Source: Hallerella succinigenes
GTDB lineage: Bacteria; Fibrobacterota; Fibrobacteria; Fibrobacterales; Fibrobacteraceae
NCBI RefSeq assembly: GCF_002797675.1
Contig: NZ_PGEX01000001.1
Location: 2,914,001-2,978,000 of the forward strand
Reading direction: 5' to 3'
Length of the DNA: 64,000 nt
Shown here: positions 5,176 to 27,043 of the stretch, piece by piece
Layout of the letters: each line of letters begins with the position of its first letter
How positions within the stretch are numbered: the stretch's first letter is position 1
The notes under the pieces: model-generated
Told to the model about the DNA's origin: nothing
Databases searched by the model: none
What the model saw: only the letters and a program-made list of their open reading frames with translations
Program-made: the position numbers and the translations under genes

Positions 5176-6053
5176 AAATTTCACGCGCCTCTTTTTTAAA
5201 ACTTTTGACGGGGTCGTTTGCCGCGCTTTCGCTGTTTGGATGCCGCAAGGAAGAATCCCTGCCGAAAAATACGCATCGGGAAGTCCCTTCTAAAGCGGAT
5301 TTGAGCCTTTGGAAAAAAGAAATCGACGAGGCGAGGTTTGCAAATCCTAAACCGGAATCCTTGGTGATGGTCCATCGACCGGGAAAGCATCCGAAGTTTC
5401 CGGATGCGGACGTGAGATTCGGCATGGCGATTGATTTGGATCTGTGCGACAGCTGCGGAAAATGCGCACTTGCCTGCATGGTCGAAAATAACGTTCCACG
5501 TGTGAATGCGTTAGAAGCTAGCAAGGGACGTTATATGCATTGGCTAGAACTGCGAGGCGGCATGCCTGTGATGTGCGCCCACTGTGGAGACGCACCTTGT
5601 GAAAAGGTTTGCCCGACGGGTGCCGCTGTGGCAAGTCCGGACGGTTTTTCGTCGATGGTTTATCCGCGTTGCATTGGAACGCGATTTTGCGGCGCTAACT
5701 GCCCCCTGCACGCGCGCAAATTCAATTATACCGATGCTGCAGAACAAGGCCTCGCCGCTAAATTTAACCCGGAAGTCCCGCTTCGTCCGCAGGGAGTTAT
5801 GGAAAAGTGTTCCCTGTGCATTCAAAGGCTCCAAAACGCCCGAATTCAAGCCAAGACATTTGGGCTTGAATGGCAGGGAAGTGGAGTGATGCCCGCGTGC
5901 GCGGCGGCATGCCCAAAACACGCAATTATATTTGGTAACTGGTTGAATCTGAATTCGGATCTTGTGCGGAAAACGCGTGGACGCGCTATTTACGCTCCGA
6001 AGTCGATTGCCAAATTCTTACCGGCTGTTGTATATCTGAGGGGCAAAGCATGA
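5172..6053 (+). CDS. lipoprotein ferredoxin-like iron-sulfur subunit (ActB C-terminal/PsrB/NrfC type)
   Basis: Electron-wire subunit, 293 aa, that should pass electrons between the cytochromes and the NrfD-like membrane protein. Cysteine groups lie at 92/95/98/102, 135/138/143/147, 167/173/177 (threonine 170 replaces the expected second cysteine) and 213/216/243/247. That gives three [4Fe-4S] clusters and probably one [3Fe-4S]; the CIGTRFC pattern is usual in Act/Psr relatives. The N-terminus (SRASFLKLL, then LFGC with C24) looks like a Tat-type lipoprotein signal, but the twin arginine is Arg-Ala. ATG 5172 overlaps the stop of the previous gene. The frame is open further upstream, inside the cytochrome gene, and those residues are spurious. 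Confidence 0.9.
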   Translation: MKISRASFLKLLTGSFAALSLFGCRKEESLPKNTHREVPSKADLSLWKKEIDEARFANPKPESLVMVHRPGKHPKFPDADVRFGMAIDLDLCDSCGKCALACMVENNVPRVNALEASKGRYMHWLELRGGMPVMCAHCGDAPCEKVCPTGAAVASPDGFSSMVYPRCIGTRFCGANCPLHARKFNYTDAAEQGLAAKFNPEVPLRPQGVMEKCSLCIQRLQNARIQAKTFGLEWQGSGVMPACAAACPKHAIIFGNWLNLNSDLVRKTRGRAIYAPKSIAKFLPAVVYLRGKA

Positions 6054-7702
6054 ATCGAAACTTTTTGATTTTTGGACTGGTGCTGCTGTTGCCCAGCCTC
6101 TTTGCCGTGGATTCTGCACTTTCGCTTGGACCTGCGAGTTGGGCTCTTTCTCAAAAATCTTTTTGGGGAACGCCGATTGCGGATTTTGTTTTTTGGATTG
6201 GTCTTGCGCATGCGGGTACTTTTTTTTCGGCGATCTTGCTTGTGTTTGGCGTGCGTTGGCAACACCGCGTTGCATTCCTAGCGGAACTTTCGACGATTGC
6301 ATCACTCGGCGTTGCGGCTTTTTTTCCGCTGATCCACTTGGGAATTCCGGAAGCTTTTTACAATATGATTCCGGTAGGGAATGCGTCTTCCGTGTATGTG
6401 AATGTGGAGTCTCCGCTGATTTGGGATTTTGTGGCGATTTTTGTTTATGGCGCAGTTTCTGTGCTCTACCTTCTGCTGCATCTTTTTTCTGTAAAAAACG
6501 CATGCCTTGAAAAATACCGCAGACCGTTTGCGTGGATTCTTTTTCCATTGGTGCTGTGGGTGCACACAATTGTTTCGCTGGATTTTGCGGTAACTTTTGT
6601 GCCAGGGTGGCAGGGCGCCTATTTTCCGCTGTACTTTATTTTTGGTGCACTGTTTTCGGGCGTCGCCTTGGTGCAGGTGCTTGTGGTACTTGCGCATCAT
6701 CGGGTGCGGGCGGTGGAAGATCTGCTGATAGCCTTTTCGTGGGCGCTTCTCGCGTTTTGGATGTGGGAAGCGAATGTAAAGGAAATTTGGCATCCGGAAC
6801 TTTTGGCGTTTGGATTTTTGGTGCCGCAACTTTTGTGGATTTCCAAAGTACGTGAAATTTCGGCGGTGCGTGCATTAGTGGCGATTTCGGTGATTGTGAG
6901 CCTTTGGTGGGAGCGCATCATTCTTGTGCAATCCGAAAATTTGGATTGGACCTGGGTGGATCTTGGACTGATTTCGTTTGGAATCGGTGCTTTCTGTGTG
7001 GCGTTTTCCCTATTGCGGATAGGACTGAAAAAGCTTTTTCCGCAGGCGTTTGATGAAGACGTGATGGAAGCTTTGCGTGCAAGAGTATGCTCTGTTGAAA
7101 GGAAAAAGTTTTGGATCTCTGTGGGTGTGGGCGCATTTGCGGCGGTTGCTTTTGCGATTTATTTTGTAAACCATGCGCCGGCGTTCCCTTGCGAGCGAAT
7201 GATTCCTGTGCTTTTCCCGATAGGAGCTTTATGTGCGGGAGTCTCTCTTTCGCTTTTTGCGATGGCGGAACTTTGGAAGCCTCGCGTGGCAGTGCTATTT
7301 ACTGTTCTTTTGGGAATTTTTGCACTTGCGTTTGGCGGTTTACTTTACCGCGGAACGGATGTTTCGTATACGGAATCCTTTGCAACAGTGGAAAGTGTGA
7401 ATCCTGCGCTTGGAACATCGAAGCAGGCCGCTCGAGAACTGTGGAACGCCCGGTGCGCAGCTTGTCACGGAAAAGATGGAAATCTGAATCGCAAATTTGT
7501 GCATGAATTTTATCCATTGCCGCAAACACTTTCGCTTGAACGGATCGATTCCTTGGGGCTGGATTCTCTTTCCCAGGTTGTGCTGAACGGTCGAAATTAT
7601 ATGCGTCCATTCCGCGGACGTGTGACCGATGCGGAAGCCTTTGCCTTGGTGTGTTACATGCGGAGCCTTGCGCTTCAAAAGAAGGAGGGAAGCGCCCCAT
7701 GA
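6050..7702 (+). CDS. NrfD-like quinone-reactive membrane subunit fused to cytochrome c
   Basis: Membrane protein of 550 aa with roughly ten or more transmembrane helices, followed by a C-terminal monohaem cytochrome c domain. The first eight or so helices read as the NrfD/PsrC/ActC family, which handles quinol or quinone at the membrane. A second hydrophobic block (about residues 350-425) follows. The haem site CAACH is near residue 470 and a likely axial methionine is in YMRPF near 517. In alternative complex III these functions sit on separate ActC/ActF and ActE subunits, so this is a compact fusion. The ATG overlaps the stop of the iron-sulfur gene (ATGA), and its own stop overlaps the next start. 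Confidence 0.88.
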   Translation: MNRNFLIFGLVLLLPSLFAVDSALSLGPASWALSQKSFWGTPIADFVFWIGLAHAGTFFSAILLVFGVRWQHRVAFLAELSTIASLGVAAFFPLIHLGIPEAFYNMIPVGNASSVYVNVESPLIWDFVAIFVYGAVSVLYLLLHLFSVKNACLEKYRRPFAWILFPLVLWVHTIVSLDFAVTFVPGWQGAYFPLYFIFGALFSGVALVQVLVVLAHHRVRAVEDLLIAFSWALLAFWMWEANVKEIWHPELLAFGFLVPQLLWISKVREISAVRALVAISVIVSLWWERIILVQSENLDWTWVDLGLISFGIGAFCVAFSLLRIGLKKLFPQAFDEDVMEALRARVCSVERKKFWISVGVGAFAAVAFAIYFVNHAPAFPCERMIPVLFPIGALCAGVSLSLFAMAELWKPRVAVLFTVLLGIFALAFGGLLYRGTDVSYTESFATVESVNPALGTSKQAARELWNARCAACHGKDGNLNRKFVHEFYPLPQTLSLERIDSLGLDSLSQVVLNGRNYMRPFRGRVTDAEAFALVCYMRSLALQKKEGSAP

Positions 7703-9197: not shown

Positions 9198-10678
9198 TGC
9201 GCGAGAAGCCCCAGAACACGCATTTCAGAAATAGCGAGGTCGCTCGATTCGTTCACAATGTAAGCGTCATCGAGGAACACTTGAATTTCGGTCGTTTCCA
9301 TCGCCTTCATCGTCGGATATTGAACGCCTTTGATATCTTCCAACTGGATCGTTTGACGGAAACCTTCCTTGGTCAGCAACGAAAGGGTTTTCGGCTTGTT
9401 GAAGATGCGGAAGCGATCGCCGAAATCGTCATCGATGGACTTTTGGAAGCCCGAGGCGATACCGATGTTCGTGATGATGGTCGGTTGGTTAAAGTCGAGA
9501 ATACAGATCGGGGCACGGGAATTCGTCGGCATCGGGATGAGCCATGCCGATTTTAAATCCTTGTCTAAAAGATTCGACGGTTCGTAATCGTCATCGCCTT
9601 CCATGTCGCGTTCTTCGTAGGCTGCGCGAACTTCGACGCCGGAAACTTCTTGTAATGTTTTGGGCGGTTTGTACGTTAGCAAGAAGGCGAGAATCAAGAG
9701 GATCAAAAGCGGGAAAAGTGCAATCGCAAACAGCATCGCGTGCTTGTTTGTAAACCTGCAAACCTTGTCGGCCACCTGGTTTGAAATCAACGGACGGTTT
9801 TTGATGAGCTTGCGAATGCTCAGGGTGTCGTGACCGTGATGATCACCCGGGTGGAGCGGCGCAAAGACAATGTCCAGGGCGTCGAGGAATTCCTGCATGT
9901 CCTTGAAACGGTCTGCAACGTTTTTCTTGAGACACTTGAGAATGAGTTTCGCAAGTCCTCGCGGCATGTCGGGACGGAAGTTCTCCGGATTAGGAGGTTC
10001 TTCTTGCACATGCTTCATCGCAATTTCGATCGGCTTGGAACCAGTGAACGGCAAGCGTCCACAGGTCATTTCGAATAAAATAACGCCTAGACTGTAGATG
10101 TCGGATCCAATCGTCACTTCATCACCGTGGCACTGTTCGGGAGACATATATTCCGGTGTTCCCATGGTCATGCCGGTCAAGGTCAATCGTTCCGCGGATT
10201 GAATGTGCGAAATACCGAAGTCCATCAGGTACACACGGTTGTCGTGCGTAATCATGATGTTCGAAGGCTTTACGTCTCGGTGGACAATCGACTTGCTATG
10301 CGCATAAAGAAGACCACGGGCAACTTGCTTCGTGATGATTTCGATGGCGTCAAAATCGAGACGACGACGGTGCTCCAGCACTTCCGAAAGGGTGCTGCCT
10401 TTCACGTAGGTCATTGCAATGAAAAGCTGATTGCCTTGCTTTCCAAAATCGAACACTTGAACCAAGTTCTGGTGGTCCAGTTCCTTCATCGCTTGCGCTT
10501 CCATATAGAAGCGTTCGATGGATTCCTTATCCGAAGAAGCATCGAGTACCTTGAGAGCGACTTCTCGTTTCAGGTTCTTTTGCAGGGCCTTGTAAACATA
10601 GCCCATGCCCCCTTTTCCGAGGACTCCCAAAATCTCATAGTTCTCATTGAACGGTCTTGGAAATTTTTCTACGGTCAT
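9194..10678 (-). CDS. transmembrane Ser/Thr protein kinase with periplasmic discoidin-like domain
   Basis: Hanks-type kinase, 494 aa. Intracellular catalytic domain residues: glycine loop GKGGMG 21-26, lysine 43, HRDVKPSN 133-140, DFG 153-155 and the SPEQ activation-segment end. One transmembrane helix lies at about 313-336. The external part (about 337-494) fits the NADase-type glycan-binding/discoidin-like pattern (NLLDKDLKSAWL, then DLAISEMRVLG), so it may sense a cell-wall or glycan ligand. There are no PASTA repeats. ATG 10678 overlaps the stop of the FHA-ABC transporter gene (ATGA). The FHA domain of that neighbour is the obvious phosphothreonine partner; this is inference from context and from the mycobacterial PknF/Rv1747 pair. 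Confidence 0.92.
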   Translation of the reverse strand: MTVEKFPRPFNENYEILGVLGKGGMGYVYKALQKNLKREVALKVLDASSDKESIERFYMEAQAMKELDHQNLVQVFDFGKQGNQLFIAMTYVKGSTLSEVLEHRRRLDFDAIEIITKQVARGLLYAHSKSIVHRDVKPSNIMITHDNRVYLMDFGISHIQSAERLTLTGMTMGTPEYMSPEQCHGDEVTIGSDIYSLGVILFEMTCGRLPFTGSKPIEIAMKHVQEEPPNPENFRPDMPRGLAKLILKCLKKNVADRFKDMQEFLDALDIVFAPLHPGDHHGHDTLSIRKLIKNRPLISNQVADKVCRFTNKHAMLFAIALFPLLILLILAFLLTYKPPKTLQEVSGVEVRAAYEERDMEGDDDYEPSNLLDKDLKSAWLIPMPTNSRAPICILDFNQPTIITNIGIASGFQKSIDDDFGDRFRIFNKPKTLSLLTKEGFRQTIQLEDIKGVQYPTMKAMETTEIQVFLDDAYIVNESSDLAISEMRVLGLLAQ

Positions 10679-12756
10679 TTTGCTTTCTTCATGGCTTCTA
10701 AAGCGAATATTACAACAATATAAATTATGAATGCAATGCCGAGTGGAATGCACCAATCTAAAAGGGCAGGCTCAAGGCCTGTAAACACATTCTGCAGGGA
10801 AGATTGGTTATAACTCGTCCAAATCGCATTCGAAAGAATCTGTGCAAAGGAGGTCACTTGGTCCTTGGGGACGAGTGCTCCGGAAAGCGCGATCTGCGGA
10901 AGGATGATCAGCGGCAAAAAGGCGTTTGCCTGCCCCGGGTTTCGTGCAAATGTGCTCAACAAAAGTCCTGCCGCCGAAGCTGGAACGACCGTCATCCAAA
11001 GAGAAATCAGTAGTTCTGGAGTCGGATAGACGCCGATGTTTTCTGCAAAGAGCGCATAGGTGATAAAGGTTTCGAGCATGGCAAAGGATGCGGTGAAGAT
11101 AAGCTTTGCGCTTATGACCGAAAGCGGGGAAGTCCCCTTGCGAAATTCATCGAGAAGCAAGGCTTTTTCTTGAACGATTTCACGCACGGAAAGCGAAAGG
11201 GCAAACCAGTTCGCACAAAGGACAAGTGCAAAGGCGGCAACCCAGAGTGAAGAAGTGCTTGAAAAAATCTGCGACAGCAAAAAGCCGATAATGAGCGGCT
11301 GAAGTAAAAGGGAGAACGCCTTGCCGCGGTCCCGGATCCATTGCTTCCAAAGCAGCGAAAAGAAGTAGAAGAACATGTTTTTTCGCAGAAGTTGAGGAAA
11401 AAAGCTTCGGGTCACTTCCGGTTCTTCGATGGCGTTTCCAAGTCCCGATTCAATCCAATTGTTTACGGTGTTATCGGAAAGCGTTTCGAGAATTCCTTCT
11501 GGATCTTCGGCGTTAAAAAAGCGGAAGGCGTCTTTCGGGGTGCCGTAGAATCCCATCTTGCCCTGATGAATCAGCAGTACTTCGTCAGAAACTTGCAGCG
11601 CTTCGTAACTGTGGGTCGTGAGAATGACCGTATGTCCTTTGGCAGCAAGAATCTTGAGATGGGCACAAAGGCGCTTGGCGTTCAGCGGATCAAGTCCCGA
11701 AAGCGGTTCGTCCAAAAGGATTAGGCCGGGAGCGCCCATCAACTGCGAAGCGATGGCGACGCGACGACGTTCTCCGCCAGAAAGAACGCTGATTCGGCTG
11801 CTTTCCAGTTCTGTAATGTGCAAAAGATTTAAGAGTTCCCGTGCTCGGGCATCGGTCTCTTCTGCGGAATAGTCCTTCGGAAGCGAGATGCGGGCGGCAA
11901 GCCTTAGGGTTTCTAAAACGGTCAGCGAATCGCGGAGTAACGGTTCTTGCGGTAAATAAGCAATTTCACGGCGAACGTTACCTTGTTCGTAATCGATGCC
12001 GTCCAAGAGAATGCTCCCGCTTGCTTTGCGAACTTTTCCAGCGAGCAGTTCGAGGAATGTGCTTTTTCCTTGACCGCTCATGCCGATAATCGAAAGGATT
12101 TTCCCTGCCGAAAGGGAAAAACGGATATCGTGGAGAATTTCTTTGCGGGAAAGTTTCACGGAAATGTCTTTGACGACGAGCGAAAATCCGATGTCTTTCT
12201 GGTGAACAAAAAGATTTCCATCGCGGAATTCAAGGAGGCACCAGGGAAGCTTCAGCGTTTCATGATTTTCAAGGTACTGCGTTTTATGCAACCGTTGATG
12301 GATAAAGACGAGCTTCAGACGCTTGCCTTCGAGCTTTGCCTGGGCGAGAACCTTCGGGCAAGCGGGGTGCAGAATCGTTCCTGCTTCATCGTCGTTCGTG
12401 CCGCGGCGAAGTAAAACGCTCGTGTCTTCGGAAAGCGGTATCGCAGGGACGTCTTCGACGGAACGGACGTGCGAAAGAGAAAGTTCTCTCTGCTTTAAGG
12501 AAAAACGGATTTGTTGCAATCCAAGCAGAAAAACGTCGCCGTGGCAGATCTCTTTTTCGTCAATGTTTTTCCCGTCGAAAAGGGTTCCCGACGTCTGACT
12601 CAAATTGGTAAAAATCCAATGCCCATCACGGCATTCGATTTTTGCATGGTGTCTAGAAACGGAAGCGTCTTTCAGCTCAAAGTCCACATCTTTGCCACGC
12701 CCAATCAAAAAAGGAGCGTCCGCAGAAATCTTCTGAACGAAAAAAGTAGAAGCCAT
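10675..12756 (-). CDS. FHA-domain ABC-2 type (ABCG-like) transporter
   Basis: Single-chain ABC half-transporter, 693 aa. An FHA phosphothreonine-binding domain occupies residues 1-90 (LIGRGKD, VSRHHAKIE, LSQTSGTLFDGK). The ATPase domain has Walker A GMSGQGKS at 225-232, signature LSGGERRR near 325 and Walker B LILLDEPLSGLD. An ABC-2 membrane domain with about six helices fills residues 480-690. The order FHA-ATPase-membrane is the same as mycobacterial Rv1747, whose activity depends on phosphorylation by the adjacent kinase PknF. Substrate unknown; export of a lipid or glycoconjugate is plausible for the fold. It starts 10 bp after the aminotransferase stop, within one operon. Confidence 0.92.
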   Translation of the reverse strand: MASTFFVQKISADAPFLIGRGKDVDFELKDASVSRHHAKIECRDGHWIFTNLSQTSGTLFDGKNIDEKEICHGDVFLLGLQQIRFSLKQRELSLSHVRSVEDVPAIPLSEDTSVLLRRGTNDDEAGTILHPACPKVLAQAKLEGKRLKLVFIHQRLHKTQYLENHETLKLPWCLLEFRDGNLFVHQKDIGFSLVVKDISVKLSRKEILHDIRFSLSAGKILSIIGMSGQGKSTFLELLAGKVRKASGSILLDGIDYEQGNVRREIAYLPQEPLLRDSLTVLETLRLAARISLPKDYSAEETDARARELLNLLHITELESSRISVLSGGERRRVAIASQLMGAPGLILLDEPLSGLDPLNAKRLCAHLKILAAKGHTVILTTHSYEALQVSDEVLLIHQGKMGFYGTPKDAFRFFNAEDPEGILETLSDNTVNNWIESGLGNAIEEPEVTRSFFPQLLRKNMFFYFFSLLWKQWIRDRGKAFSLLLQPLIIGFLLSQIFSSTSSLWVAAFALVLCANWFALSLSVREIVQEKALLLDEFRKGTSPLSVISAKLIFTASFAMLETFITYALFAENIGVYPTPELLISLWMTVVPASAAGLLLSTFARNPGQANAFLPLIILPQIALSGALVPKDQVTSFAQILSNAIWTSYNQSSLQNVFTGLEPALLDWCIPLGIAFIIYIVVIFALEAMKKAK

Positions 12757-19024: not shown

Positions 19025-19060
19025 AAATGCCCTTGGTTCATCACCAAGGGCATTTTTTTT
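19025..19060 (+). terminator. mdh terminator
   Basis: A 12-bp perfect stem (AAATGCCCTTGG with its complement) and a seven-base loop are followed by a T-run, beginning 17 bp after the mdh stop. Confidence 0.93.
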
Positions 19061-19101
19061 ACAGAAATTTATTAAATTCACTAGACCAACCAAGGAATTG
19101 T

Positions 19102-19584
19102 ATGGCAGATATGATCGACGACGAAGAATTGAATGTTTCCGAAGAAAAACCGAACGAAGACAACATCGAAAGTGCGATGAAGCCTCGCGATTACAGCTTG
19201 CGACGAGTTCTTCTTTGGGAACCGGACGAAAATCGCCGTAATTGTGCAATTGAAGTAATCTCGGGCCTTTTGACCGGAGCTTTTGTCGACGGCGTAGGAA
19301 CGGAAGAAGAAGCTCTCCAGAAGCTCGATGAAGAACTGTGGGATACTTTTGTCGTGGACTTCTACAACGAAGGCTGCTCGGAATCGGAATTCATCAAAAA
19401 GGTGAACAACTACCCGAATTCGATCCTTGTTGCGTTGAACCTCGCTCCGTTCACCCTTCCGGAAGAACGCAACCGTTACAAGATCGAACCTCTCCGCAAG
19501 CTTTTTGAAATTGAAAAGCCGAAGTCGGAAGAAGAGATGGCTGAATCCTCGGACGACGATTCTTTCGACGAGGAAGATTCGTAG
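19102..19584 (+). CDS. degenerate receiver-domain (pseudo-response-regulator) protein
   Basis: Small acidic protein, 160 aa. Residues 34-138 have the strand/helix rhythm of a CheY-type receiver: VLLWEPDENRR supplies an E40/D42 pair, TFVVDF places D86 at the phospho-acceptor position, and K127 sits near the usual conserved lysine. Otherwise the domain is divergent and there is no output domain; both ends are acidic low-complexity tails. ATG 19102 is used because the upstream open frame runs through the mdh terminator. It lies 9 bp before the ABC ATPase gene, so it is the first gene of the importer operon and might modulate it. The receiver assignment is by pattern only. Confidence 0.65.
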   Translation: MADMIDDEELNVSEEKPNEDNIESAMKPRDYSLRRVLLWEPDENRRNCAIEVISGLLTGAFVDGVGTEEEALQKLDEELWDTFVVDFYNEGCSESEFIKKVNNYPNSILVALNLAPFTLPEERNRYKIEPLRKLFEIEKPKSEEEMAESSDDDSFDEEDS

Positions 19585-19593
19585 GACTGATTT

Positions 19594-20685
19594 ATGGCAG
19601 AAGCCAAATCAGCGATTGAACTTTCGCACGTTTCCAAGGCTTATCCTGGAGACGTAGATGCGGTAAACGACGTTTCGCTTTCTATCCGAGAAGGCGAGTT
19701 TGTCGCGTTGGTCGGTCCATCGGGCTGTGGAAAATCCTCCATTCTGCGCATGATCGCTGGGCTTGAGACCCCCTCGGAAGGGGATCTTTTGCTGCATGGA
19801 GAAGATGCAAGCAGGCTCGACCCAAAAGACCGCGACATCGCCATGGTGTTCCAGACGCATGCGCTGTATCCGCACATGACAGTTCGCCAAAATTTGGAAT
19901 TTGCTCTGCGCATGAAGCTTGTTTATTCGGTGAAAGAAATCGAGGAACGTATCCGCGAAGCTGTCGATATTTTGGACCTTGCGCCGTTGCTCGATCGTAA
20001 GCCGAAGCATCTTTCTGGCGGTCAGCGTCAGCGTGTTGCCTTGGGAAGAGCTCTTGTCCGCAAACCGAAGATCTTCCTTTTTGACGAACCGCTTTCCGGT
20101 CTTGACGCCAAGATGAAAAATCAGATGTGCGTGGAACTCGGACGTTTGCATTCTCGTTTGCAGGCGACGATGGTACTTGTGACGCACGATCAGAATGAAG
20201 CGATGACCATGGGTGACCGAGTCGTTTGTCTTTCGAATGGAAAGATTCAGCAGGTCGGGACGCCGATGGAGCTTTACGAGCATCCGGCAAACGAATTTGT
20301 GGCAAGCTTTATCGGAGTTCCTCCGATGAACATCTTTGCTGCCCAGTGGGGACGAGAAGGTCTTTATTTTGAAAAGGCTGGATTCACATTCCCGGTTTCT
20401 GAAGCATTTGCGTCGAAGTACCGCACGGTTCCTCGTATGCTTGTCGGAGTTCGCCCGGAGTTCTTTACCATTTCGGCTGCAGGTCCAAATACGATTGTCG
20501 CGGTCATCGAAGTGGTGGAACATCTGGGTTACGAAACGCTCGTCTATGCGCAGAGCAACGATCTGAGCTTGGTCGTCCGCGTTCCGCCACTTGCCAATTT
20601 TGCGGTCGGCGAAAAGATCTATCTCTCGCTCGACGAAAAGAATATTCATTTGTTTGATATTTCGACAGGGGCAAGCTTCTTTTGA
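19594..20685 (+). CDS. sugar-type ABC importer ATPase (MalK/UgpC/MsmK family)
   Basis: Cytosolic ATPase of a carbohydrate or glycerol-phosphate class importer, 363 aa. Walker A is GPSGCGKSS (about 43-51), the Q-loop lies in MVFQTHALYPHMTV, the signature is LSGGQRQRVALGRAL and Walker B is IFLFDEPLSGLD. The C-terminal third (from about 240) fits the MalK-type OB-fold regulatory domain (GVRPEFF). It is followed by a solute-binding protein and two permeases in the same operon; its TGA overlaps the TTG start of the binding-protein gene. Confidence 0.94.
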   Translation: MAEAKSAIELSHVSKAYPGDVDAVNDVSLSIREGEFVALVGPSGCGKSSILRMIAGLETPSEGDLLLHGEDASRLDPKDRDIAMVFQTHALYPHMTVRQNLEFALRMKLVYSVKEIEERIREAVDILDLAPLLDRKPKHLSGGQRQRVALGRALVRKPKIFLFDEPLSGLDAKMKNQMCVELGRLHSRLQATMVLVTHDQNEAMTMGDRVVCLSNGKIQQVGTPMELYEHPANEFVASFIGVPPMNIFAAQWGREGLYFEKAGFTFPVSEAFASKYRTVPRMLVGVRPEFFTISAAGPNTIVAVIEVVEHLGYETLVYAQSNDLSLVVRVPPLANFAVGEKIYLSLDEKNIHLFDISTGASFF

Positions 20686-22049
20686 AAATCTTCCGGGCTA
20701 TTAGGCTTTTAGCCATGTTGCTCTGTGCAGCTTTTCTGGGAAGCTGTAGTTCGGATGATAGTCAGCAAAAGGAAGTTTTGCAGCTCTGGATTATGCCGAA
20801 CAGTCCTGATCCGACTGCGGATATGCAGCATGTTCTGCGTAATTTTGAATTGGAAAATCCAGGCATTGAAGTGCAGGTGACGGTTCTTGACTGGAGCGTC
20901 GCCTGGACAAAGATAACAACGGCGGCTTCTACGCGAAGCGGCCCCGATGTGATTCAGATGCCGACGACTTGGGCTGCTGCCGTGACTGCGATGGAAGCCT
21001 TGATGCCGATGGATTCTCTGATTGCGGTGTCGGGCGGGGATTCCGCCTTTGCATCTGTGTCGATGAAGTTTGCGCGCCCGGTCGGCGTTCAACAGGCGAC
21101 ATCGGTTCCGTGGTTCTTGGATGTGCGCCCGCTGTATTACAGACGCGATGCTTTGGCTGAAGCGGGCGTCAATCCGGCAAAGGTGCGAAATTGGGATGAA
21201 TTCCGCATTGCTTTGGAAAAAATTCGCAAAGCAAATTTGGTCATCGAAGATCAGCATATCGATCCGATTGGCTATCCAGGAAAACACGACTGGAATGTAA
21301 TTCATAACTTGGCTCCGTGGATTTGGGGCGCGGGTGGTGACTTCTTGGATTCGACCGGAACGGAAAGCCTTCTTGCGACCAAAGAAAGCATCAATGGAAT
21401 TCTGTTCTATTTGAGCCTTGTGCGCGATGGTTTTAACAGCCGAAAAAATTTGTCGAAGAATACAAATCAGGTGAGCATGGACTTTGATGAAGGCAGGTTG
21501 GCTTTCTGGTTCGATGTGACGAATAAGACGTTGTATTTGGATAGCCCGCGTTTCCTGGGAGGTTCATCGAAAAACGTGACAGCACGTAATTATTCGGCAA
21601 TGCTTCCGCCGGTTGCTCCTGAGGGCAAGATGCCTTATTATTTTGCAGGCGGTTCGAACCTTTCTGTTTCTCGTTATACAAAACACAAACGCGCGGCGAT
21701 GGCGCTTGTGCGCTACTTGGTTGCCCGTCCGGACGTTCAGCTCGAAATCGCTCGTGTGATGGGATTTATGCCGGCGCTTCTTTCCACTTACGAATATCCG
21801 TTCTTCAAGGATGACGGAAAGAGAGATGTGTTCCAGCAAATGGTTTTGCATTTGCGATCGTATCCGGCGGTTCCGTATTGGGGTGAAATCGAAACGGAAA
21901 TTTTGCTCCGTCGCTTTGGAAATATCTTCGACCTGATCACATCCAGCCCCGAAAAGGTTTGGCCGGAAAAGGATATCATTGCAGAAATTCGCGCTGCGGA
22001 TAAGGAAGTGAACCGCTTTATCCATCGTCAGAGGGAGGCCTCTCGATGA
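20682..22049 (+). CDS. extracellular solute-binding lipoprotein, family 1
   Basis: Substrate-binding component of the ABC importer, 455 aa. The lipoprotein signal ends in FLGSC, so the protein is anchored by an N-terminal lipidated cysteine. The mature part has the family 1 binding-protein layout (LQLWIMPNS start, LENPGIEVQVTVLDW, SGPDVIQMPTTW, YYRRDAL hinge region). TTG 20682 is chosen because it overlaps the previous stop (TTGA) and supplies the basic n-region; ATG 20715 would remove the positive charges. The ligand is probably an oligosaccharide or glycerol-phosphate-type compound; this cannot be decided from sequence. Confidence 0.92.
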   Translation: MKIFRAIRLLAMLLCAAFLGSCSSDDSQQKEVLQLWIMPNSPDPTADMQHVLRNFELENPGIEVQVTVLDWSVAWTKITTAASTRSGPDVIQMPTTWAAAVTAMEALMPMDSLIAVSGGDSAFASVSMKFARPVGVQQATSVPWFLDVRPLYYRRDALAEAGVNPAKVRNWDEFRIALEKIRKANLVIEDQHIDPIGYPGKHDWNVIHNLAPWIWGAGGDFLDSTGTESLLATKESINGILFYLSLVRDGFNSRKNLSKNTNQVSMDFDEGRLAFWFDVTNKTLYLDSPRFLGGSSKNVTARNYSAMLPPVAPEGKMPYYFAGGSNLSVSRYTKHKRAAMALVRYLVARPDVQLEIARVMGFMPALLSTYEYPFFKDDGKRDVFQQMVLHLRSYPAVPYWGEIETEILLRRFGNIFDLITSSPEKVWPEKDIIAEIRAADKEVNRFIHRQREASR

Positions 22050-22984
22050 GAAAGCGTTATCTCTTTTTGTTGCCGTTGCTCGTCTTTTTGACGTTTGTCT
22101 TTGTGATTCCCGTTCTGATGGGAATCGTATTGCCGTTCTTTTCGGGAGAAGGGACTTCGCAAGAAATTCGAAACGGCTCCTTTAGCTTTGCACACTTTAT
22201 CGAGTCCGTTTCTTCGGGCGCGGGTACAGGCTTGATCGATGCGATTCGCAATACGCTCATTTACACTTTCTGCGTTTCGTGCGGTTGCATTATTTTGGGG
22301 CTTTTCGGGGCTTTGCTTGTAACGCAGAAATTCCCGTCTGCGGGAATTGTTCGCTTTTTGCTGATGATTTCTTGGGTGGTGCCGACTTATATCGTAGGTC
22401 TCCTTTGGGGATTCATGTGGCAGCAGGATGAAGGCATTATCAATATGATCCTGTTTGATTATTTACGTTGGGATCAGATTTCGGGAATTTTTGGTGCGAA
22501 CTGGAATTATTTGCCGGACGGAACCTTGGTGAAGCCGAACTGGCTCACGGGCCCGAATACGATTTGGGCGATTATTGTGCCTTCCATTTGGCGAAATTGG
22601 CCGTTCTGCATGATGATGTTCCTATCGGGACTTTCGGCGATTCCGCATGATATTTATGAAGCGGCAGAAATCGATGGCATTCCTTCGCGTGAACGCTTTT
22701 TGCACATTACCTTGCCGATTTTACGTCCGATATTTGGCGTCATCATTCTCGAATGTTTGGTGATCAATATGTACAGCTTCAACCTTGTGGCGATGATGTT
22801 CGGCAACGGTTCTGGCTTCCCGGGTAAATTTAGCGATTTGATGATGACGTTCCTTTACCGCACTTCGTTCCAGACTTGGAATTTTGGCGCGGGCGCGGCT
22901 CTCGGTACGCTTTCCATGTTCTTTATGCTTATCTGTGTTTCGATCTGGTATCGGAACTTTGGAAAGGATCTGAAGAATGGTTAA
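22046..22984 (+). CDS. ABC importer permease 1 (MalF/UgpA-like)
   Basis: Membrane permease of 312 aa with about six helices. The EAA coupling motif that docks on the ATPase reads EAAEIDGIPSRERFLHITLP. A somewhat enlarged loop (about residues 140-180) lies before it. ATG 22046 overlaps the stop of the binding-protein gene, and its own end overlaps the next permease by 8 bp. It should form a heterodimer with the following permease. Confidence 0.93.
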   Translation: MRKRYLFLLPLLVFLTFVFVIPVLMGIVLPFFSGEGTSQEIRNGSFSFAHFIESVSSGAGTGLIDAIRNTLIYTFCVSCGCIILGLFGALLVTQKFPSAGIVRFLLMISWVVPTYIVGLLWGFMWQQDEGIINMILFDYLRWDQISGIFGANWNYLPDGTLVKPNWLTGPNTIWAIIVPSIWRNWPFCMMMFLSGLSAIPHDIYEAAEIDGIPSRERFLHITLPILRPIFGVIILECLVINMYSFNLVAMMFGNGSGFPGKFSDLMMTFLYRTSFQTWNFGAGAALGTLSMFFMLICVSIWYRNFGKDLKNG

Positions 22985-25160
22985 GTTTGTAGCTTGGGCA
23001 TTCGCGCTTTTGAACGTAGCACCGATTCTTTGGATGGTGTGGAGTTCTTTGCTCGGCTCCAGTGAAATTCAGCAGGGTGAAATTTTCCCTGCTCCATATC
23101 CGAATGACGTCGTCTTTTTTGAAAAAACGCAGAATCGCAGCGTGGTAGCCGCCACTTTGCACGGTCAGATTTACCACTACGAAAACAAGGATCTACGGCC
23201 GAGTTTCCGTCAAAAGCTCGATCTGCAGGCGGTGTCTGTTAACTATGTTCTTTCGGATTCGAGCCTCTACGCGTTTTCGCCAGACGAAGGCTTGATGAAA
23301 ATCAATCTCTCGAAGATGAGAGTGGACCACAAATGGAATTGGTCCGACTTTGAAAAATCCTTTAAACAGTATGACTTCTCCACGTTCCGTTACGTGGCAA
23401 ACCAGACCCCAGAAGGGGAATTCGCCCGTCTAGGCGCTCTTCTGGACACGGTCCCGCTGATTGAAAACTCGGACATGACATTTGCAACGCTCTTCAAGCG
23501 TTCTTTCCCTCGGGATTCAAGCGTCATGGAATCGCTGAACATGATATTGAATTCGACCGAAAGCCTTTCCAAGGTCATTGCCATTTGGCAGAAGAAAACG
23601 GACTGGGTGAACCCAGCGATTAATAAACTTTTTAAGAAACGCTTCCGCTTCACCAAGGAAAATCGCGAACTTTTCCGCTGGTGTTTAGCGGAACGCATTC
23701 CGACTCCGCTCACGATTTACCGTCGTATTCCGTGGTCTTCCATTTGGGTGGACCGTGTTCCGGCGAGCGATCATGGTGTGTCGATTGCGAGTGCAGGTGA
23801 TGTTCTTTGCGTGGGCATGTGGTGGGAATCTTTCCCGGGCATCGCCATTGTGAACAAGAAGACGGGGAAAATCGGCTGGGTGACGCCACAGACCGGTTTG
23901 CCGTCGAGTTCCGTGCAGCGTATTTTGCGCGTTTCCGAAAAGGAAGTTTTGGTGTCGCACGATCAAGGTTTTTCTTTGATTGATGTGCAAAGTGAAAAGG
24001 TCAAAGCGAACTATCTCTTTGGCGAATCGGGACTTCCTTTCTACAATGGCCGCGACATGCGCCTTTCTATTGTGAGCCGCAGTTCGATGCTTTTTGCCTG
24101 TGGACGTGAAATCGTCTTTTTTGACTTCCGTGCGGGTCATGCAGTCAAGCGCCTTTACGGCGATGCCCATTTATTCCAATCGGATATTTCGGTCATCAAG
24201 AGCTTCGGCAATCGAGTATTCTTTGGACTTTCGAATGGCTTTGTCGAAATGAATCTTTGGGACTTGTTGAACGAAGGCAGCGAACAAAAAACATATTCGG
24301 TGGATGGAACGGCGACGAGTCTTTTCTTTGACAATGGAATTCTGTTGGTGGGAATGCAAGAAGGTAAGCTTGCCAATATCGACTTGGCTTCGGGCAAGGC
24401 GGTTGTCAAGGAACAGCTTCCTTCGGGCGGCTTGTATTTGCACTGGCGAAATTATGAGGACCTTTGGCGGACGATTCCTTTTGGCACCTTCCTTTCGAAT
24501 TCGTTGCTGATTTGCTGTTCGACGGTTTTGATCTGTTTGATCCTGGGCTCGCTTGCGGGTTATGGTCTCGCCCGAGCCTCTTTCCGCCTGTACCGTTTTA
24601 TGAATGTGGGCTTGATTTGGAGTCAGGTAATTCCGAACGTATTGTTCTTGATTCCGGCGTTCCTGATCGCGTCGTATTTGCAGTTGCATTCTTCGATCCA
24701 TATTTTGAATACGCGCTGGGGAATCATTGTGCTGTATTCGGCTCTCTTCCTTCCGATGGCGACCTGGATTTTGCAGAACTTCTTCCGTTCCGTTCCGCGT
24801 GAAATTGAAGAAGCCGCTTTGCTCGATGGTTGCACTCCGTTTACGGCTTTTTTCCGAGTAATTGTTCCTTCGTCCCTTCCCGGCATTTTGACCACGGGCA
24901 TTTACGTGTTCATTCTCGCGTGGGACGAACTGATGTTTGCCTGGGTGTTCTCGATGGATGTTTCGACGGCGACGATTCCTGTCGGCATGCGCCTTTTCTT
25001 TGGGCAGTTTGCGACGCGCTATGATTTGGTGATGGCGGCAGCCACCCTTTCCACTTTGCCTGTGATGATTCTTTTTATGATTGTGCAACGTCGCTTGATC
25101 AGCGGTTTCCCCGGAGGACGTGCTGTTGCGGCAAGGAATGCGGGCAAAAAGGTCCGATAG
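22977..25160 (+). CDS. ABC importer permease 2 (MalG-like) with large periplasmic propeller-like insertion
   Basis: 727 aa, against about 280 for ordinary MalG-type permeases. Helix 1 is at about 3-22. The conserved permease sequence resumes near residue 485 (NYEDLW, then FLSNSLLI at helix 2) and continues through a normal EAA motif (EEAALLDGCTPFTAFFRVIVP, about 610-632) to the C-terminus. The intervening 450 residues fall in the first periplasmic loop. They contain repeated short beta segments such as TGLPSSSVQRILR, which resembles two-component-regulator propeller repeats, and IAIVNKKTGKIGW, which resembles PQQ/WD-type blades. The inserted domain may contact the binding protein or sense a ligand. 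The frame is unbroken, with no sign of a sequencing join. Confidence 0.9.
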   Translation: MVKFVAWAFALLNVAPILWMVWSSLLGSSEIQQGEIFPAPYPNDVVFFEKTQNRSVVAATLHGQIYHYENKDLRPSFRQKLDLQAVSVNYVLSDSSLYAFSPDEGLMKINLSKMRVDHKWNWSDFEKSFKQYDFSTFRYVANQTPEGEFARLGALLDTVPLIENSDMTFATLFKRSFPRDSSVMESLNMILNSTESLSKVIAIWQKKTDWVNPAINKLFKKRFRFTKENRELFRWCLAERIPTPLTIYRRIPWSSIWVDRVPASDHGVSIASAGDVLCVGMWWESFPGIAIVNKKTGKIGWVTPQTGLPSSSVQRILRVSEKEVLVSHDQGFSLIDVQSEKVKANYLFGESGLPFYNGRDMRLSIVSRSSMLFACGREIVFFDFRAGHAVKRLYGDAHLFQSDISVIKSFGNRVFFGLSNGFVEMNLWDLLNEGSEQKTYSVDGTATSLFFDNGILLVGMQEGKLANIDLASGKAVVKEQLPSGGLYLHWRNYEDLWRTIPFGTFLSNSLLICCSTVLICLILGSLAGYGLARASFRLYRFMNVGLIWSQVIPNVLFLIPAFLIASYLQLHSSIHILNTRWGIIVLYSALFLPMATWILQNFFRSVPREIEEAALLDGCTPFTAFFRVIVPSSLPGILTTGIYVFILAWDELMFAWVFSMDVSTATIPVGMRLFFGQFATRYDLVMAAATLSTLPVMILFMIVQRRLISGFPGGRAVAARNAGKKVR

Positions 25161-25213: not shown

Positions 25214-27043
25214 ATGAAGTCTCAACGTAAAAAATCTGATGAATCTCGCGCTACACGAATTTCTCGTGTATACTTTAATCGCCTGTTCCCGAAAAGAATG
25301 GATGCTCTTGAAGTGGCTCTTTCGGTTTTTGTCGGCGTCTTTATCGGCGTTTGGCCGACGATCGGTGTGGCGATAATTTTGACTGTGGCTCTTTGTGCAC
25401 TATTCAAACTTCCGAAGGTTCCGGGCGTCATTTCTTCTTTTGTGGCGAATCCGGTAACCCAGTTCGGATTCTTTTATCCGTCGGGATATTTCCTCGGTAA
25501 AAAGATCTGGCATCCGGAAGCGATTACGTTCGACTTTTTGGAAGAATTGAAGGGACTTTCTTTTAGCAATGCAATCGATGTGGTGTCGCGCTTGTGGAAT
25601 GAAGCGGCGGGACATGTGATCGCTTTCTTGATCGGCATTACGATTGTCGCATTTATTTTCGGTTCGATTTTTGGCATTGCCGCCTACTTCATCGTTTCGT
25701 ATCGCAAGCGCAAGCACATCGATATCAAGAACAAGTACATCCACGAATTGATCGCCGAAGATCAAGTTATTATTAAAAAAGCCAAGCAAAAAGGAAAACA
25801 CATGCATATCTTTCCGTTCAAAGCACTCCGTCCTGTTGATCCCGCACAGGCAAAGGATATTTCCGCCCTGCCGTATGACGTGATGAACCGTGAAGAAGCC
25901 AAGGAAATGGCCAAGGACCTTCCGTATTCCTATCTACGCATCACCCGTGCAGAACTTGAACTCCCGGATTCCGTGGACGCCTATGACCCGCAAGTCTATG
26001 CGCACGCCAAGGAAAACTTGGACAAGTTCATCGCAGAAGGCGTGATCGCCTTCGACAAGAAGGACTGCCTCTACATTTATCGTCAGACGATGGAAGGCCG
26101 CGAACAGTACGGTCTCGTTTGCACGGTGCCGGCGAAGGATTACTTCGAAGGCGTCATCAAAAAGCATGAACTCACCCGTAAGGACAAGGAAGACGACCGT
26201 CTTCGCCACGTGCTTGCGACGAATTCCAACACGGGTCCGGTGTTCCTCACTTACCGTGACAACGGCCAGTTCGAACTTCTCAAAGATATTATCGCCCGTA
26301 AGCCGGTCTATGACTTTGTGACGGAAGCGGATGGCTTTGGCCACACGGTCTGGGTTATCGAAGACGATGCAGAAATCGAAAAGATTTGCCGCGCCTTTGA
26401 CGCAGTCCCGGTCAGCTACATCGCTGACGGTCACCACCGTAGCGCTGCTGGCGCACGTGCCGCCGGCTACCGCGCTTCGCAGAACCCGGAAAATAAGGGC
26501 GACGAAGAATACAACCGTTATCTCGCCATTCTCTTCCCGAGCACCCAGCTCAAAATTTTGGATTACAACCGTGTCCTAAAGGATTTGAACGGTCGTACAC
26601 CGGAACAGTTCATGGAAGAATTGAAGAAAGTCTTCGAAATTTCGGAACTTCCGGCACAGGCTCATCCGACGAAGCAGAATGTTGTAAACATGTACCTCGG
26701 CGGCAAGTGGTTCGCTTGCGAATTCAAGCAGGAATACTTGCAGGACCTCGGCCCTGTCGATAGCCTCGACGTAGCGCTTCTCCAGAAGCTCGTTCTGAAG
26801 CCGCTCTTCAACGTGGAAGATCCGAGAACCGCTCAGAACATCGACTTCGTCGGTGGTATTCGCGGTCTTGGCGAACTCGAAAAGCGCGTAAATTCCGGTG
26901 AATGCGCAGTCGCTTTCGCCATGTATCCGACTTCCTTGGATCAGTTGATGGCGATTGCCGATGCAGGTGAAATCATGCCGCCGAAGAGCACATGGTTTGA
27001 ACCGAAACTGCGCGACGGTCTCCTCGTTCATACTCTCGACTAA
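25214..27043 (+). CDS. DUF2062-DUF1015 fusion protein
   Basis: 609 aa, composed of two families that are normally separate. Residues 1 to about 175 are a DUF2062 membrane domain (GVFIGVWPTIGVAI, FVANPVTQFGFFYPSGYFLG, three to four helices). From residue 197 a complete DUF1015 protein follows: FKALRP, then LPYDVMNREEA, and the ADGHHRSAAGARA motif. A basic, lysine-rich linker (KKAKQKGKH) joins them. The DUF1015 start M197 (ATG 25802) is preceded by AAAAGGAAAA, a plausible Shine-Dalgarno, so a free DUF1015 protein could also be made. DUF1015 proteins often occur near serine or phospholipid metabolism genes, but their activity is unproven. Confidence 0.85.
   Translation: MKSQRKKSDESRATRISRVYFNRLFPKRMDALEVALSVFVGVFIGVWPTIGVAIILTVALCALFKLPKVPGVISSFVANPVTQFGFFYPSGYFLGKKIWHPEAITFDFLEELKGLSFSNAIDVVSRLWNEAAGHVIAFLIGITIVAFIFGSIFGIAAYFIVSYRKRKHIDIKNKYIHELIAEDQVIIKKAKQKGKHMHIFPFKALRPVDPAQAKDISALPYDVMNREEAKEMAKDLPYSYLRITRAELELPDSVDAYDPQVYAHAKENLDKFIAEGVIAFDKKDCLYIYRQTMEGREQYGLVCTVPAKDYFEGVIKKHELTRKDKEDDRLRHVLATNSNTGPVFLTYRDNGQFELLKDIIARKPVYDFVTEADGFGHTVWVIEDDAEIEKICRAFDAVPVSYIADGHHRSAAGARAAGYRASQNPENKGDEEYNRYLAILFPSTQLKILDYNRVLKDLNGRTPEQFMEELKKVFEISELPAQAHPTKQNVVNMYLGGKWFACEFKQEYLQDLGPVDSLDVALLQKLVLKPLFNVEDPRTAQNIDFVGGIRGLGELEKRVNSGECAVAFAMYPTSLDQLMAIADAGEIMPPKSTWFEPKLRDGLLVHTLD
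25802..27043 (+). CDS. possible internally initiated DUF1015 protein
   Basis: Nested in-frame alternative product of 413 aa. It begins at the exact start expected for a stand-alone DUF1015 protein (MHIFPFKALRP) and has an AAGGA sequence 7 bp upstream. Codon use also becomes visibly more C-rich from about this point, as in the highly expressed genes of the window, which supports separate origins for the two halves. Confidence 0.35.
   Translation: MHIFPFKALRPVDPAQAKDISALPYDVMNREEAKEMAKDLPYSYLRITRAELELPDSVDAYDPQVYAHAKENLDKFIAEGVIAFDKKDCLYIYRQTMEGREQYGLVCTVPAKDYFEGVIKKHELTRKDKEDDRLRHVLATNSNTGPVFLTYRDNGQFELLKDIIARKPVYDFVTEADGFGHTVWVIEDDAEIEKICRAFDAVPVSYIADGHHRSAAGARAAGYRASQNPENKGDEEYNRYLAILFPSTQLKILDYNRVLKDLNGRTPEQFMEELKKVFEISELPAQAHPTKQNVVNMYLGGKWFACEFKQEYLQDLGPVDSLDVALLQKLVLKPLFNVEDPRTAQNIDFVGGIRGLGELEKRVNSGECAVAFAMYPTSLDQLMAIADAGEIMPPKSTWFEPKLRDGLLVHTLD

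Follow-up and report, generated by a model that had tools for sequence, protein, structure and literature searches.

Type I sugar importers, a textbook class of machine, have small permeases, and the locus studied here raises the question of what a large extra domain is doing in the first periplasmic loop of one such permease. The gene, PERM2 (22977..25160, + strand), lies in a window of 64,000 nucleotides from Hallerella succinigenes (the whole stretch of DNA that was analysed), in a genome which is one 3.13 Mb contig. The first-pass annotation had read it as a MalG-type permease that is intact and in an unbroken frame, and both points hold: all 727 codons are open at exactly these coordinates, and residues 523-707 match PF00528 (E 8.6e-17, 61.9 bits for a cut-off of 26.4). 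The product is a BPD_transp_1 permease, EAA-type coupling motif included; in the alignment E611, E612, D617, G618 and P635 of this motif are invariant and P631 is nearly so. Both the motif and the PF00528 match lie in the permease core, TM2-TM6 (residues 489-715, 24441..25121), for which the Foldseek matches include SugB (31-33% identity) and MalG (26%).

The other three genes of the importer precede PERM2 on the + strand. They encode a UgpC/MalK-type ATPase with a TOBE domain (19594..20685; ABC_tran, TOBE_2, and 435 bits for the UgpC model NF008653, whose cut-off is 432), a lipoprotein binding protein (SBP) of the beta-glucoside/cellodextrin type (20682..22049; SBP_bac_1 E 2e-27), whose lipoprotein signal ends with the lipobox LGSC, read directly in the sequence, and a MalF-type permease, PERM1 (22046..22984; 312 aa; PF00528 E 1e-13), which is 46% identical to the Paenibacillus partner permease and has no large P2 domain. 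The four genes overlap in the order ATPase, SBP, PERM1, PERM2, and this order is repeated in the Fibrobacterota relatives wherever the locus is long enough. An SBP_bac_1 SBP, a second permease and a MalK/UgpC-type ATPase, as recognised by Pfam and NCBIfam, are what is expected of a CUT1 operon. Judged by its sequence, this operon encodes a CUT1 (type I) sugar ABC importer which is ordinary apart from the insert. A search of the same genome with PERM2 gave just one further match, a weak one, and SBP_bac_1 has three matches in it; hence this importer may be the genome's main one of its kind.

The insert (residues ~40-485, 23094..24431) has about 446 aa and replaces the first periplasmic loop. 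Insert-free relatives align directly on either side of it, and this alignment places it after TM1 and before the NYxxLW segment that leads to TM2, just where the loop had been said to be expanded. TM1 (residues ~5-28, 22989..23060; AlphaFold2 helices 2-12 and 15-25) aligns with the TM1 of these relatives; in the AlphaFold2 model it precedes the insert and all the other helices follow. This model, obtained for the single PERM2 chain with an alignment of 38 sequences, has a mean pLDDT of 83 and a pTM of 0.73, the insert being mostly at 85-95. In it the insert has 28 strands which make up seven four-stranded blades (residues 45-82, 89-120, 268-302, 313-347, 362-393, 406-441 and 446-480). Blade 1 (strands 45-50, 56-60, 64-68 and 78-82) and blade 2 (strands 89-93, 96-101, 105-110 and 115-120) occupy residues 45-121 (23109..23339), while blades 3-7, with 20 strands between 268 and 480, occupy residues 262-485 (23760..24431). 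Between blades 2 and 3 stands a helical module of ~140 aa (residues 121-261, 23337..23759; helices predicted between 122 and 240). In the alignment, this module was observed in family f1 (Fibrobacterales) alone, its columns holding no residues in Margulisiibacteriota or in family f3.

When residues 40-495 are compared with solved WD40 propellers by VIA-align, Z is ~26, with 2.6-2.7 A over ~285 residues, and the Foldseek matches for the insert include BamB and the BT3049 sensor ectodomain. At the level of sequence, PERM2 has propeller matches below threshold, to PQQ_2 at 260-481 (E 1.4e-5; 25.3 bits, for a gathering cut-off of 27.6) and to the PorZ propeller (E 0.017); Reg_prop is not among the matches listed for PERM2 itself. 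With hmmscan at E up to 0.1, PQQ_2 is found in 12 of 38 members and Reg_prop in three, which means that sequence and fold agree. The insert is predicted to be a seven-bladed beta-propeller. The structure prediction that the first-pass annotation had proposed as a check thus gave a confident propeller, neither disordered nor of another kind; the propeller-type repeats which it had noticed are recovered as blades by AlphaFold2 and VIA-align, but roughly one third of its length is made of helices instead.

Among the 168 Fibrobacterota genomes surveyed, a strong match to PERM2 (E <= 1e-35) was obtained in 28, from eight genera. The insert stands at the same site in all 25 whole proteins that were aligned, that of the source genome included, and the remaining three are consistent with this: two members of genus g6 match both flanks and the insert, and the third is a cut-off frame. 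No strong match was found in the sister genus g2, which is well sampled and which we take to include F. succinogenes. The isolate F. intestinalis ATCC 43854 has the insert, with 70% identity. The ratio dN/dS (Nei-Gojobori) is 0.06-0.12 for the insert and 0.03-0.12 for the core, these values being rough as several dS are saturated; purifying selection on the insert is nevertheless clear. The expected conservation in Fibrobacterota is therefore real, and orthologues lacking the domain are not what the alignment contains, but the domain is not restricted to this phylum.

Indeed, MAGs of Margulisiibacteriota, Saganbacteria and WOR-1 have homologous inserts at the same site, of 315-322 or 196-198 residues, and close insert-free versions of the permease are also present in Margulisiibacteriota. 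The ~320-residue insert has seven blades and the ~197-residue insert a predicted four. In the model of the short insert the four blades reach a pLDDT of ~90, the whole model being weaker (75), and its propeller matches by VIA-align are parts of 7-8-bladed rings. Profile comparison gives E 2.9e-20 for f3 against the ~320 group, 4.9e-15 for f1 against the same group and 6.9e-33 for the ~320 against the ~197 group, all values which the repeats inflate; the shared insertion site supports a common descent of the inserts. Some blade columns are missing from the alignment in genus g6 of Fibrobacterota; together with the short inserts, this shows that the number of blades varies, from about 4 to 7. 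On an unrooted tree of the core only, the state of the insert needs 8 changes, gains and losses not being distinguished, and many of these are in the WOR-1 group; the insert-free score of two rows (L058 and L074) is due to contig ends. Permeases of WOR-1 and Saganbacteria with and without the insert are about 80% identical in their core. This points to an insert that is accessory and not essential to translocation. With their blade numbers of about 4 to 7, these permeases with and without insert offer a natural comparison series.

The kind of sugar imported can be approached through the SBP. Over its full length it matches both 7c63 (E 3.5e-89; 413 aligned residues, 38% of them identical), which we take to be the Thermus beta-glucoside-binding protein, and C. 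thermocellum CbpB (E 1e-70); by this homology it falls among the CbpB/betaGlyBP SBPs for cellodextrins and beta-glucosides. The aromatic positions that differ among the deposited 7c6x variants (LDW, TTW), which we infer to be ligand-site mutants, are kept in it. Genes for a GH1 glucosidase, a GH94 phosphorylase, a GH26+CBM9 protein and a GH8 protein adjoin relatives of PERM2, as does a weak xyloglucan-binding match, and the source genome encodes a GH94 enzyme. Considering the SBP homology and the neighbouring genes, the substrates are most likely cellodextrins or beta-glucosides. They would be shared with the C. thermocellum transporter B (CbpB) and Thermus betaGlyBP systems, to which the full-length SBP homology and the CUT1 organisation also relate this importer. 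In C. thermocellum, CbpB belongs to the only transporter for cellodextrins, and it was compared with the Thermus protein in the same paper; the ATPase gene of transporter B lies elsewhere, whereas here it is inside the operon (PMC9601137). How F. succinogenes S85 transports cellodextrins was stated to be unknown (PMC6851124), and for the import of these sugars in Fibrobacter of the F. intestinalis type our operon is a strong candidate.

What might the propeller do in such an importer? The first-pass annotation had suggested substrate sensing, gating of the importer or tethering to a surface complex. E. coli MalFGK2, also a type I sugar importer, likewise has a permease with an additional periplasmic domain on the SBP side. 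That domain, however, is MalF-P2, which is smaller and of a different fold, whereas the propeller stands in the P1 loop of the MalG-type protein and its MalF partner is plain. Hence PERM2 is not of the MalF-P2 type, and MalF-P2 has no counterpart here, since the MalF-type partner is only 312 aa long. An insert in P1 beside a PERM1 without any domain of the size of P2 leads us to prefer a docking or regulatory function. The propeller would be a fixed platform in the loop equivalent to MalG P1, where it would hold or orient the lipoprotein SBP over the path of translocation; in this way it would tune SBP residence and the coupling of the ATPase, and it would take over the job of E. coli MalF-P2. 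Daus 2007, as cited in PMC3150292, reports that E. coli MalE interacts with MalF P2 and MalG P1, and the earlier suggestion that the insert adjoins the docking face of the SBP agrees with the second of these contacts. MalE is also reported to bind the P-open transporter tightly (PMC3328499).

That the SBP docks on the propeller is something we infer, and the conserved residues of the insert, partly structural in appearance, do not by themselves define a surface facing the SBP. The main point against docking as a universal role is that no SBP homologue was found in the short-insert WOR-1 loci, within the locus sequence examined. Furthermore, relatives in Paenibacillus, Tumebacillus and Chloroflexota have a similar SBP and no insert, and evidently need no such platform. 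Taken as a whole, the statement that PERM2 is a cellodextrin/beta-glucoside CUT1 permease whose P1 propeller is an SBP docking or regulatory platform is put forward tentatively, with a probability which we place somewhat below one half.

The propeller could instead be a ligand sensor, similar to the Reg_prop propellers of Bacteroides hybrid two-component sensors, which would gate import or report the availability of sugar; a receiver-like protein, whose gene lies immediately upstream, might take up such a report. The gene of this protein (19027..19584, + strand) ends just before the ATPase gene and is syntenic in Fibrobacterales relatives, a point in favour of this reading. It is weakly recognised, though, with PDB receiver matches at E 0.015-0.04, a Response_reg match in one orthologue at E 0.0037 (17.8 bits, below the cut-off of 30.2) and none listed for the protein of 19027-19584 at E up to 1, and it was not found in the insert-bearing loci of family f3 or of Margulisiibacteriota. 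In one Fibrobacterota locus the gene of the propeller permease is followed directly by that of a HisKA-receiver protein (L038:10654-11814), but such a kinase neighbour occurs in a single genome. The match to the BT3049 ectodomain and the three members with Reg_prop (best E 9.3e-6) point to a sensor as well, and in C. thermocellum the induction of the cellulosome is lost on deletion of the CbpB-type transporter (PMC9601137). We regard a sensor as a rather unlikely reading.

BamB and scaffold WD40 proteins are among the top structural matches, and this is consistent with a BamB-like scaffold which would tether the importer to, for instance, a periplasmic glycosidase or phosphorylase or to outer-membrane uptake proteins. 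The variable number of blades and the extra helical module would suit a changing partner, and glycosidase genes do adjoin the relatives. Structural matches between propellers, however, say little on partners, and no partner gene is constant across the insert-bearing loci; we consider a scaffold unlikely.

A lectin-like module, concentrating oligosaccharide near the SBP, would be well placed on the extracytoplasmic side of an importer of glycan breakdown products, and six Trp of the insert are conserved (W122, W204, W210, W253, W257 and W301). Five of these six, however, belong to the region of the helical module and not to repeated blade positions, and no lectin propeller is among the structural matches listed, which does not exclude one; we hold sugar binding of that kind to be quite improbable. 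About as doubtful, and perhaps a little more so, is a combination of importer and receptor, in which the propeller would read extracytoplasmic beta-glucans or the state of the SBP and signal through the permease with the receiver-like protein as output; if true, it would couple cellodextrin uptake to regulation. Lastly, that PERM2 is an assembly chimera or a frame artefact has practically no probability left, because the genome is a single contig, independent orthologues including that of the isolate F. intestinalis carry the insert, purifying selection acts on it and homologous inserts exist in another phylum.

The individual parts of this architecture are of known kinds, and their combination is undescribed as far as open-access literature shows. 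The closest solved permease core is SugB (E 1.9e-31) of the mycobacterial LpqY-SugABC, which imports trehalose; SugB has 274-278 aa and no inserted domain. The fold is shared with BamB/WD40 and with Reg_prop propellers such as the BT3049 ectodomain, to which the weak PQQ_2 matches and the Reg_prop matches of some members correspond; those, however, are separate proteins or sensor-kinase ectodomains, whereas here the propeller is a loop of a transporter permease. The first-pass annotation knew of no described importer with this design, and our search of open-access literature, which cannot prove absence, found no description of a propeller in a permease either. Large-insert PstC, a possible precedent, was not found to be linked with a propeller in the literature searched; DUF3708 (PF12501) is absent from the source genome and was matched, among the controls, in Caulobacter only. 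The large conserved propeller in the P1 loop means that importers can gain extra periplasmic domains at this site, which as far as we found had not previously been noted as one.

Other long permease frames in Fibrobacterota turned out to be an SBP fusion, a two-core permease or overlapping frames and not propeller inserts. Several unusual frames were seen in the loci examined. L082:923-3253 is a frame of 776 aa, apparently a fusion of an SBP with a MalF-type permease, and the next gene encodes a MalG-type permease; in the source genome, L088:1637-3337 is an SBP_bac_3-permease fusion of 566 aa, and L087:1145-3343 is a frame of 732 aa with SBP_bac_1 in residues 264-566 only and no assignment for the other residues. 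At L055:3790-5751 a MalF-type permease shares one frame of 654 aa with a GH26-like domain, and in related WOR-1/Saganbacteria loci, whose sequence showed no homologue of the SBP, a GH26-like protein is encoded just upstream of the permease. In the window itself, a DUF2062-DUF1015 fusion (25214-27043) lies directly downstream of PERM2, an FHA domain is fused with an ABC ATPase and an ABC-2 membrane domain at 10675-12756, and the NrfD-like membrane protein of 6050-7702 carries a cytochrome c domain of the CBB3 type at its C terminus.
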